Part shown: piece after piece, positions 9,312 through 30,814 of the stretch
How the letters are laid out: every line of letters starts with the position of its first letter
How positions within the stretch are numbered: position 1 is the stretch's first letter
DNA from: Kiloniellales bacterium
Lineage (GTDB): Bacteria; Pseudomonadota; Alphaproteobacteria; Kiloniellales; JAKSBE01
DNA: 64,000 nt
Assembly: GCA_030066685.1 (NCBI GenBank)
Contig: JASJBF010000040.1
Coordinates: forward strand, 1 to 64,000
Direction: 5' to 3'
Program-made: the position numbers and the translations under genes
Notes under the pieces: model-generated
What the model was told of the DNA's origin: nothing
Databases searched by the model: none
Seen by the model: only the letters and a program-made list of their open reading frames with translations

Positions 9312-10043
9312 ATGAAAAAGGCCCAGATCGCTGAGTTCTTCGACCGTCTCGCCGCCGCGAACCCGGAACCGCGCGGCGAGCTGGACTACGTCAACCCCTA
9401 CACCCTGCTGGTCGCCGTGGTGCTCTCGGCCCAGGCGACCGACGTCGGGGTCAACAAGGCGACCCACGGCCTTTTCAAGGTCGCCGACACGGCGCAGAAG
9501 ATGGTCGACCTGGGCGAGGCGCGCCTCAAGGACCACATCAAGACCATCGGGCTCTACAACAGCAAGGCCAAGAACGTCATCGCGCTGTCCGGGATCCTGC
9601 TCCGGGATCACGGCGGCGAGGTGCCGCGGGACCGGGCGGTGCTGGAGACCCTGCCGGGGGTCGGGCGCAAGACCGCGAACGTGGTCCTCAACATCGCCTT
9701 CGGCGAGCCGACCATCGCCGTCGACACCCACATCTTCCGGGTCGGCAACCGCACCAGCCTGGCGCCGGGCAAGACGCCCCTGGCGGTCGAGCAGCTTCTC
9801 GAGAAGCGGGTGCCGAAAGAGCGGCGGCTCCACGCCCACCACTGGCTGATCCTGCACGGACGCTACGTCTGCAAGGCGCGCAAGCCGGACTGCCCCGCCT
9901 GTGTGGTCCGCGACCTCTGCGCCTACAAGGCCAAGACCACCCTGGAGGCGCCGGCGAAGCCCGCCAAGAAGGCCAGGAAAGCGGGGGCGGGATCCAAGCG
10001 CAGCGGCGCCAGCACCCGGCGGGCGCGGGCGCTGCGCGGCTAG
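9312..10043 (+). CDS. nth: Endonuclease III
   Basis: Nth is a base-excision repair DNA glycosylase/AP lyase that removes oxidised pyrimidines. The 243-residue protein has the helix-hairpin-helix LPGVGRKTANVV, containing the catalytic lysine, the catalytic aspartate in VDTH, and the [4Fe-4S] ligands C-x6-C-x2-C-x5-C in CKARKPDCPACVVRDLC. A Lys/Ala/Arg-rich tail of about 35 residues extends past the usual end. The ATG at 9312 is preferred over an in-frame start at 9276, which would add residues not found in the family. The TAG stop is at the left edge of a palindromic repeat, so the exact C-terminus was probably set by that element. Confidence 0.98.
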   Translation: MKKAQIAEFFDRLAAANPEPRGELDYVNPYTLLVAVVLSAQATDVGVNKATHGLFKVADTAQKMVDLGEARLKDHIKTIGLYNSKAKNVIALSGILLRDHGGEVPRDRAVLETLPGVGRKTANVVLNIAFGEPTIAVDTHIFRVGNRTSLAPGKTPLAVEQLLEKRVPKERRLHAHHWLILHGRYVCKARKPDCPACVVRDLCAYKAKTTLEAPAKPAKKARKAGAGSKRSGASTRRARALRG

Positions 10044-10156
10044 ATCAAGATCGGCTCAGATTGACTCAATCTGTGCCGTGAATCTTGATCTACTTTAACA
10101 GGTTAGAGCATGAGTCACGTGTCACACCGCTGCGGCGTGACACGATCATGCTCTAG
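10042..10156. repeat. Paired nested palindromes, copy 1
   Basis: The first palindrome (10042-10091) has outer arms AGATCAAGAT and ATCTTGATCT and an inner stem CAGATTG/CAATCTG (10057-10073). A 12-base linker ACTTTAACAGGT follows. The second palindrome (10104-10155) has arms TAGAGCATGA and TCATGCTCTA, an inner stem CGTGTCAC/GTGACACG and a GC-rich tip. The pair sits between convergent nth and the lipoprotein gene, so it can act as a two-way terminator. It resembles the pair at 16126-16251 in layout, linker and boundaries. Confidence 0.75.
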
Positions 10157-15209: not shown

Positions 15210-16127
15210 ATGCAGATCCTGCTCGACGTCGTCGTCGACATCACTCTGCCCGTGGTCCTGATCGCCGCCTTCGGCTTCGTCATGCAGCGTCGCGTCGGCT
15301 TCGATATCGCGACCCTCAACCGCCTGCTGATCTACGTCACACTGCCCTGCTTCCTGGTCCACAGCCTGGCGACGGCGGAGCTGCCGCTGTCCCAGGTCCG
15401 GACCACGGCGATCTTCACCGTGGTGCAGTTCTTCGTCCTGCTCGGCGTTGGCTGGCTGGTCGCCAGGGGCGCGGGGCTCGCCGCCGGGGCCCGGCCGGTG
15501 GTCGCGCTTTCGGCGGCCTTCGCCAACTCGGGCAACTTCGGCATCCCGGTGATCGAGCTCGCCTTCGGCCCCGCCTACGTGCTGCACCAGGCGGTGATCA
15601 CGGCCATCCTGGGGATCCTGATCCTGGTCGTGCTGCCGGTCATGCTGGCCGAGGGCCGGCTCAGCCTTCTCAGCGCGCTCAAGGAGCTCTTCGCCACCCC
15701 GCTGATCCCGGCCGTGGCCCTCGGGCTGCTGCTCAACGCCTTCGACCTAGCCCTGCCGCGGGTCGTCGCCCAGCCGCTGCAGGTTGTCGGCAGCGCCTAC
15801 GTCGCGGTCGCGCTTTTCGGCCTGGGCGCCCAGCTCGCGGCCAGCGGCTGGGCGATCTCCGGCCGGGCGGTGGCCTGGGGCGTGGTCTTGCGGCTTTGCG
15901 TGGCGCCCCTTCTGACCACCCTGGCGGTCCTGCTTCTGCCCGGCCTGCCGGTCGAGCTGCGCGACCTGCTGATCGTGGGCAGCTGTGTGCCGGTCGGGGT
16001 CCTGCTGGCGATCTTCTGTGCCCAGTACGGCCGGGGCGCGGAGCTCGCCTCGGCCACGGTCGTGGTCTCGACCGTGCTGAGCCCGGTCGTGATCACCCTG
16101 GCAGTCGTGATGACCCGCGCCTACTAG
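15210..16127 (+). CDS. AEC family transporter (auxin efflux carrier type)
   Basis: The 305-residue protein has about ten transmembrane helices with the family hallmark SAAFANSGNFGIPVIELAFG in the middle and a second half ending FCAQYGRGAELASATVVVST. AEC permeases export or exchange organic anions such as malate or malonate. The substrate here is not predictable. The ATG at 15210 lies 15 bases after the macrodomain stop. The TAG stop lies at the left edge of the palindromic pair at 16126-16251. Confidence 0.9.
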   Translation: MQILLDVVVDITLPVVLIAAFGFVMQRRVGFDIATLNRLLIYVTLPCFLVHSLATAELPLSQVRTTAIFTVVQFFVLLGVGWLVARGAGLAAGARPVVALSAAFANSGNFGIPVIELAFGPAYVLHQAVITAILGILILVVLPVMLAEGRLSLLSALKELFATPLIPAVALGLLLNAFDLALPRVVAQPLQVVGSAYVAVALFGLGAQLAASGWAISGRAVAWGVVLRLCVAPLLTTLAVLLLPGLPVELRDLLIVGSCVPVGVLLAIFCAQYGRGAELASATVVVSTVLSPVVITLAVVMTRAY

Positions 16128-16251
16128 GGCATTATCCGATCAGATGGAATCGCTTTGCGATCCATCTGGCCGGATGTAATGCCCTCGTTTCAACGTGTTA
16201 GCGCACTACTCCCGGCCAGACGCGAATGCGTCTGATCGGGAAGTGCGCTAG
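16126..16251. repeat. Paired nested palindromes, copy 2
   Basis: The first palindrome (16126-16185) has outer arms AGGGCATTA and TAATGCCCT and an inner stem CAGATGG-A-ATCGC/GCGAT-CCATCTG around a TTT loop. A 13-base linker CGTTTCAACGTGT follows. The second palindrome (16199-16250) has arms TAGCGCACT and AGTGCGCTA, with AGACGC/GCGTCT and CCCG/CGGG inside. It fills the gap between the convergent AEC transporter and phoB genes. The linker and the 52-base second unit match the copy at 10042-10156 in size and partly in sequence. Confidence 0.75.
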
Positions 16252-16262
16252 ACGCCGACTGG

Positions 16263-16963
<701 letters not shown>

Positions 16964-16967
<4 letters not shown>

Positions 16968-30768: not shown

Positions 30769-30814
30769 CTAGTCCGCATTTCCCACCGTGGTCACGGTGA
30801 GAAATGCGGGCTAG
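30769..30814. repeat. 46-base palindrome bounded by CTAG
   Basis: The sequence folds into one long stem. Arms starting CTAG-T-CCGCATTTC and ending GAAATGCGG-G-CTAG flank CACCGTG/CACGGTG with a 2-base tip. The only departures are one G-T wobble and one C-A mismatch. It lies between lipoprotein paralogues 1 and 2. It looks like a dispersed palindromic repeat rather than a terminator, since no T-run follows on either side. Confidence 0.7.

Follow-up and report, generated by a model that had tools for sequence, protein, structure and literature searches.

What fills the gap between a membrane transporter gene and the phosphate genes that face it, and why does it begin inside the transporter's stop codon? 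Within the window, by which we mean the whole 64,000-nucleotide stretch of Kiloniellales DNA that was analysed, the gap between the AEC gene and phoB is filled by a 60-nt palindrome, a 13-nt linker and a 52-nt palindrome, as read directly from the sequence. An earlier note on this DNA had described this arrangement, with CTAG on both outer sides, as separating the AEC gene from the phosphate genes; the description is exact, and phoB-phoU-pstB-pstA (names inferred from domains and gene order) lie on the far side of the element. The parts are as follows, with the basis for each in brackets.

15210..16127, plus strand: AEC-type membrane transporter gene (PF03547), with its stop codon inside the left CTAG
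16124..16251, plus strand: whole footprint, C-TA-element-TA-G, 128 bp (sequence; borders aligned in 30 copies)
16124-16127: left CTAG (sequence)
16124..16149, plus strand: left terminal repeat, IS630-end-like (end comparison)
16125..16126, no strand: probable left copy of the duplicated TA target (Sinorhizobium empty sites and border variants)
16126..16185, plus strand: hairpin 1, 60 nt, with a bulge in the inner arm (sequence and folding)
16127..16248, plus strand: element proper, G...C, 122 bp (as implied by the TA duplication)
16147..16151, no strand: GAATC (GANTC), end positions 24-28, at the apex of hairpin 1 (position counts in copies and in IS630 ends)
16186..16198, plus strand: linker CGTTTCAACGTGT, 13 nt, the family's most variable part (sequence, copy alignment)
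16199..16250, plus strand: hairpin 2, 52 nt, related to hairpin 1 in inverted orientation (sequence, folding, inverted arms)
16226..16251, minus strand: right terminal repeat, IS630-end-like (end comparison)
16248-16251: right CTAG (sequence)
16249..16250, no strand: right copy of the duplicated TA target (Sinorhizobium empty sites and border variants)
16263..16967, minus strand: phoB-like response regulator, with phoU, pstB and pstA next (domains)
10040..10156, plus strand: copy 1, another subfamily of the same element, with linker ACTTTAACAGGT (GACTC at 10063-10067)

The unit is not confined to this locus. BLASTN against the own genome returned at least 40 full or near-full places with 87-100% identity (40 of 76 candidates scored), and one other copy was identical to that in the window over 127 bases. 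The covariance-model check proposed in the earlier note was run with a model built from 31 copies (28 from the own genome, two from genome G002 and one from G006), and it did find further copies: at least 48 full-length places in the own genome at 81 bits or more (150 of 3381 candidates scored), together with many weaker or partial matches. A search for the end pattern, allowing up to three mismatches, gave 111 matches (60 forward, 51 reverse) against one for a reversed control pattern. The recurrence of the double-hairpin unit is far beyond chance. When 30 copies were aligned, their likeness ended at CTAG-like borders and the flanks were unrelated, except for a few copies with a common mobile element next door. 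Because of the copy number (at least 48), the unrelated flanks and the CTAG-like borders, a local terminator was replaced by a mobile repeat as the account of what this element is.

The alignment also changes how the two window copies should be read. It had been claimed that their arms differ completely while the linker core agrees, and this is true of that pair; among the 30 copies of the subfamily, however, it is the linker that differs most from copy to copy, and the arms hardly change. The proposal that the linker is a conserved recognition core fails, the conserved parts being the outer ends and the GANTC at positions 24-28. Copy 1 belongs to a subfamily that, counting copy 1, has 12 own-genome places scoring more than 100 bits.

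Single hairpins also occur, with CTAG or a CTAG-like sequence at both sides, and some are hybrids of the two halves: three of them (L129, L136 and L142) join the outer arm of the right hairpin to the inner arm of the left one, which points to exchange between hairpin units. A lone CTAG-bounded palindrome in the window at 30769-30814 (CTAGTCCGCATTTCCC...GAGAAATGCGGGCTAG) is perhaps the solo hairpin of another such family. At one place (L148, G000 C55:5300-6700) a copy has landed within an older and damaged one, at a CTAG standing where the family consensus has CCGG. Other elements have entered the borders themselves. In L004, L006 and L024 (G000 C39, C30 and C42) another short mobile element, with ends TGTGGTGGTTCCTAAGTTCGTCATAT, lies in the CTAG border of the copies; about 270 bp of it are visible in L004, with both inverted ends and both CTAGs. 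A different IS630 with ends CTAGTGTYCTGAT sits exactly at the CTAG border of a copy in L214 (G002 C389, 6677-7858), which suggests that the borders are landing sites for other transposons. Copies or fragments were also seen no more than a few hundred bases from the ends of G000 contigs C2, C8, C9, C18, C30, C35, C38, C39, C45 and C52; the repeats and their neighbours probably break the assembly.

The structure of the element is conserved. The architecture was recovered in 23 of 61 genomes of the order with model R1. When the cross-genus model R2 was run on 289 genomes sampled from the class, 35 had a match, among them the own genome and two from the same order. Covariation was measured on 21 elements from 20 genomes, aligned by sequence alone, with the structure predicted from the same alignment (which gives that structure an advantage in the slide control): 93.1% of cells pair, against 71.5% in shuffles, changes on both sides were found in 25 of 34 pairs, and none of 500 shuffles reached any of five measures. 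Covariation is strong across genera and weak within the subfamily, because there the arms hardly vary. The earlier note's expectation of a conserved structure with covarying arms was thus well founded. The pairing statistics indicate that the hairpins are kept either by selection or by repair between the arms; many elements carry a bulge of 2-4 nt in the inner arm (judged by eye), which repair between arms should erase and which therefore points to selection. The hairpins may serve the element itself, for instance by marking or protecting its ends.

Selection on structure had led the earlier note to suggest a two-way terminator, and one could suppose that the unit is a bidirectional transcription terminator or an RNA-stabilising element that selection maintains for the expression of host genes. 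The window hairpins are strong (RNAfold, -37.7 kcal/mol for 16120-16186 and -38.3 kcal/mol for 16197-16252), they covary across genera, and the window copy lies exactly between two convergent genes; but no T-tract stands beside either of them in the sequence, and no terminator-like site was found in the element. Over the window, none of 4227 Rfam families matched at its gathering score, the best weak match reaching 24.3 bits against 59.5. Gene context, read from the calls of a home-made codon-model gene finder with overlaps of up to 25 nt tolerated, bears on this reading in both directions. All 48 copies fall outside predicted genes; 22 lie between tandem genes, 12 between convergent and five between divergent genes, and nine at contig ends. 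Compared with 706 gene gaps in a 0.8 Mb sample of the genome, convergent gaps hold more copies than expected (12 of the 39 copies that could be classified, versus 109 of 706 gaps; p=0.0008 by length and p=0.012 by count). Divergent gaps hold fewer, a shortfall that is significant by length (p=0.015) and not by count (p=0.46). Yet 22 of the 39 copies stand between tandem genes and five between divergent ones, genome G002 lacks the element between the same two genes, and near-identical copies at unrelated loci speak for dispersal rather than for convergent terminators. A host terminator is therefore unlikely to be what this element is; given the excess of copies between convergent genes, it may have a terminator-like side effect.

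How a mobile repeat enters its site was read from empty target sites. BLASTN of three elements against plasmids gave no match, and the cross-genus model R2 was used to reach a relative in Sinorhizobium meliloti. There, in 300 kb of pSymB, the model gave four matches, the two strands of two places; this related, CTAG-bounded double hairpin of 117 bp is abundant on pSymB. Used as a BLASTN query, the pSymB element matched 241 plasmid records, 237 of them from Sinorhizobium, Rhizobium or Ensifer. At the first locus the filled site reads TGGCC[CTAG...CTAG]GAGATACG and the empty one TGGCC-CTAG-GAGATACG, with a single CTAG in both records read (S. kummerowiae and Sinorhizobium sp. K101). At the second, S. 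meliloti reads CTAG...CTAA and K101 only one CTAA, next to one altered flanking base; this was seen in one of two records, the divergence of the other being too great for a reading. Of the 48 copies in the own genome, 29 retain an intact TA on both sides, and their probable targets are CTAG in 24, TTAG in three and CTAA in two. The empty sites and these border variants together imply that a TA is duplicated within YTAR and that the element proper runs from G to C. Dispersal is thus shown, and so are TA duplication and the YTAR target, the latter two in the Sinorhizobium relatives and by the border variants. At the window locus, the intergenic DNA of G002 is too diverged for a base-exact empty site; G001 has no element directly after the AEC stop, and its phoB is on another contig; the sequence examined around the other G000 and G002 copies held no base-exact orthologous empty site.

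The duplication bears on the class of enzyme involved. An inverted pair of hairpins accompanied by solo hairpins resembles REP sequences and REPINs, inverted pairs of REP hairpins that are moved by a RAYT (Y1) transposase. A duplicated TA fits a DDE transposase rather than a Y1 enzyme, however, and the duplication in the Sinorhizobium empty sites is clean. The borders are CTAG instead of an unpaired GTAG tag, and the single Y1 transposase match in the genome lies at a contig end, with an unrelated visible flank and the far flank off the contig. We consider a REPIN highly improbable. Among DDE elements, the preference of IS630 for the TA in CTAG has reportedly been noted, to judge from the title of a cited work. 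TA duplication by IS630/Tc1-mariner transposons is described in PMC2170065.

The target also explains the start of the element inside a stop codon. At the window locus, the AEC stop codon TAG is made of the left target TA (16125..16126) and the first G of the element, and in 19 of the 48 copies the neighbouring gene ends on a border TAG, so the note's observation is real and recurrent. CTAG is scarce in this genome: 400 were seen where base composition leads one to expect 2390, about a sixfold deficit. Among the 404 CTAGs of the sample that were classified, 123 were coding and 281 non-coding, and 92 of the latter were stop codons. A special preference for stop codons is unsupported by the comparison of 19 of 48 copies with 92 of 281 non-coding CTAGs (p=0.19); starts inside TAG stops are what targeting of CTAG predicts, and the feature calls for no explanation beyond it.

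At 122 bp the element has no room for a transposase gene, and a likely helper was sought among IS630 transposons. Matches to PF13358 occur in 31 of 61 genomes of the order, and 30 loci were examined, one per genome. Six had clear CTAGAGC-type end pairs; at L260 the pair was weaker, with TTAG, and at L266 it was of a different type. The six CTAGAGC-type pairs resemble the outer ends of the element, as in CTAGAGCGTTATCCGCTCAG (L254) and CTAGGGCATTATCCGATCAG (window copy). In a test of 40 element ends from 20 genomes against 12 IS ends, with shuffles as control, the mean best match was 13.05 of 20 positions versus 7.6 for shuffles; the elements being related, the 40 ends are non-independent tests, of which 36 gave p<=0.05 against shuffles and four failed. 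Matches of at least 13 of 20 were found for 24 of the 40 ends and for 0.2% of shuffles. The likeness extends to orientation. The IS630 of genome G055 was compared with six elements, one of them from G033 and the rest from the genus of G055, which itself supplied one of these five: its left end matched the left end of all six at 17-19 of 25 positions and the right end at 14-16 of 25, and its right end matched the right end better than the left in five, with one tie. These comparisons suggest that a transposase of this IS630 subgroup would move the element in trans. Against an IS630-type element stands the absence of hairpins from IS630 ends. The own genome contained no IS630 with ends specific to the window-copy subfamily, and its one PF13358 transposon (L128) was rejected as direct parent, since it has in common only the outermost bases and the GANTC.

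The same target would suit a MITE whose mover is a transposase of the IS5 family (IS711-like), an enzyme that likewise duplicates the TA of YTAR; PMC2266754 reports this for IS711, together with a preference for the Bru-RS palindromes. An IS5-type transposon (PF01609) bordered by CTAG and TTAG is indeed present near 18.4 kb of G000 C2 (L170), but its terminal repeat (GTGTTTAGTCCC...) is unlike the element ends, as judged by eye in the own genome only. It is the IS630 ends that resemble those of the element, and the two also have the GANTC position in common, which makes an IS5-family mover quite unlikely.

This GANTC also ties the repeat to IS630. In the left end of the element it stands at exactly positions 24-28 in 39 of 48 own copies, and at these positions of the right end in none. 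Among the 31 sequences of the covariance model it is present there in 29 (N being A, G or C), the other two having GGATC, and 17 of the 21 cross-genus elements carry it, 16 at position 24 and one at 25. The transposase-side end was readable in 13 of the 14 best-scoring IS630 loci of the order (L128, L251-L254 and L256-L263), the exception being L255, which extends past the end of its contig. Each of the 13 has YTAR, 19 bases and GANTC at that end. The motif lies 520-562 bp from the start of the DDE_3 domain in the 12 loci measured, and the other end is without GANTC at 24-28 in all six loci read at both ends. For the 16 lower-scoring loci (L264-L279), whose ends are mostly unread, YTAR-N19-GANTC was absent from 14 stretches, and L277 had one in an unrelated place. 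One of these loci (L268, G019 C182:22-1206), perhaps an IS630 from a different subgroup, has GANTC at 24-28 of each putative end; agreement between the two ends is limited to 11 of 22 positions, which makes the case uncertain.

The same spacing to GANTC was found in eight of 808 CTAG readings from the 0.8 Mb sample, and all eight start predicted hairpins, which belong to the window-copy family, the copy-1 family and at least two others. Further own-genome hairpin families with GANTC at 24-28 of one end were seen in L149, L156, L167 and L206 (CTAGATCAAACTGCGCTC..., and CTAGAGCACGATGRCATGAGG... with a relative). On named plasmids, three of 13 alphaproteobacterial IS630 elements were unreadable and eight of the ten readable ones have the GANTC, ISRm2011-2 and ISRm10 included; the other end is without it in seven of these eight, the Agrobacterium element having GANTC in both. 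Outside the class (Planctomyces, Hymenobacter, Oscillatoria), the end pair could be read in two of three cases, neither with GANTC. The fixed GANTC at 24-28, in the left end of the element and in the transposase-side end of IS630, is new here.

GANTC is the methylation site of CcrM, and the movement of IS10 is licensed by Dam in the hemimethylated state that follows the replication fork. By analogy, the GANTC at 24-28 could tentatively be seen as a CcrM methylation switch, in which hemimethylation after the fork licenses movement or transposase expression. A plain base pattern for transposase binding (GAATCG) would give most of the same GANTC data.

Taken together, these observations make it very probable that the element is a non-autonomous MITE of the IS630/Tc1-mariner kind. 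According to the model, it is an inverted pair of imperfect hairpins whose outer arms form the left and right terminal repeats; these would be recognised by an IS630-subgroup transposase supplied in trans, which would excise the element and paste it into the TA of YTAR, mostly CTAG, with duplication of the TA. Its first base being G, insertion into the TA of a stop codon would restore TAG, such that stop codons would be targets that do no harm in this GC-rich, CTAG-poor genome. The GANTC at 24-28 might couple movement to CcrM methylation. The element is short and repeated, has no transposase gene, shows TA duplication and has IS630-like ends for which no exact parent was found; the empty sites come from Sinorhizobium relatives, not from the window locus, and YTAR is also used by IS5-type elements.

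Several known repeats invite comparison. CIR, the CcrM-associated intergenic repeats of Caulobacter, were reportedly described by Chen and Shapiro in 2003, and RIME elements of Rhizobium are said to go back to Osteras in 1995; by name and taxon, RIME are comparable as dispersed intergenic repeats of rhizobia. In the accessible part of a review (PMC2229807), CIR are alphaproteobacterial and intergenic, about 110 bp long, with two arms and a linker, an exposed GANTC and TA termini; their mobility is left open there, the role of the GANTC is given as undetermined, and the table lists no terminal repeats for them. Compared by description, the Kiloniellales element likewise has two arms and a linker at about 110 bp, a GANTC at or near one loop (39 of 48 own copies, 17 of 21 cross-genus elements) and TA termini, and it differs in the terminal repeats, TA duplication and IS630 link found here; among known repeats, the CIR description appears to fit best. 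Bru-RS1 and Bru-RS2 of Brucella, palindromic repeats of 103-105 bp in the part of PMC2267715 available, are reported in that of PMC2266754 as insertion spots of IS711 at YTAR with TA duplication, and by description they are alike in that other mobile elements also enter the CTAG borders of the Kiloniellales element. RUP of Streptococcus pneumoniae, as presented in the same part of the review (PMC2229807), is a 107 bp MITE with IS630-like ends, a TA target and IS630-Spn1 as its proposed mover; size, ends and target are similar, whereas neither a double hairpin nor a GANTC is described for RUP there. Similar at one end is ISRm2011-2, an IS630-family element of S. meliloti: its left end CTAGAGCGGGATG is identical over 13 nt to that of the pSymB element and has GANTC at 24-28, but it is autonomous, with 1,058 bp between the outer CTAGs (one copy). 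Among the literature matches listed, in a source that covers older journals little and judged by titles and the opening of abstracts, none gave an IS630 link for such repeats or a GANTC in an IS630 end. The one listed paper that contains both GANTC and IS630 treats them as separate uses, and transposon terms were absent from the main text of two CcrM papers.

Double-hairpin intergenic repeats have been catalogued in Alphaproteobacteria for decades. One such family here gains a concrete identity, very probably that of an IS630-type MITE, and its target rule accounts for starts in stop codons. The case is a caution against calling such repeats terminators or sRNA genes. The position-fixed GANTC ties the element to its likely helper and to the cell-cycle methyltransferase; if the methylation switch is true, it would explain the GANTC of CIR-type repeats across Alphaproteobacteria.
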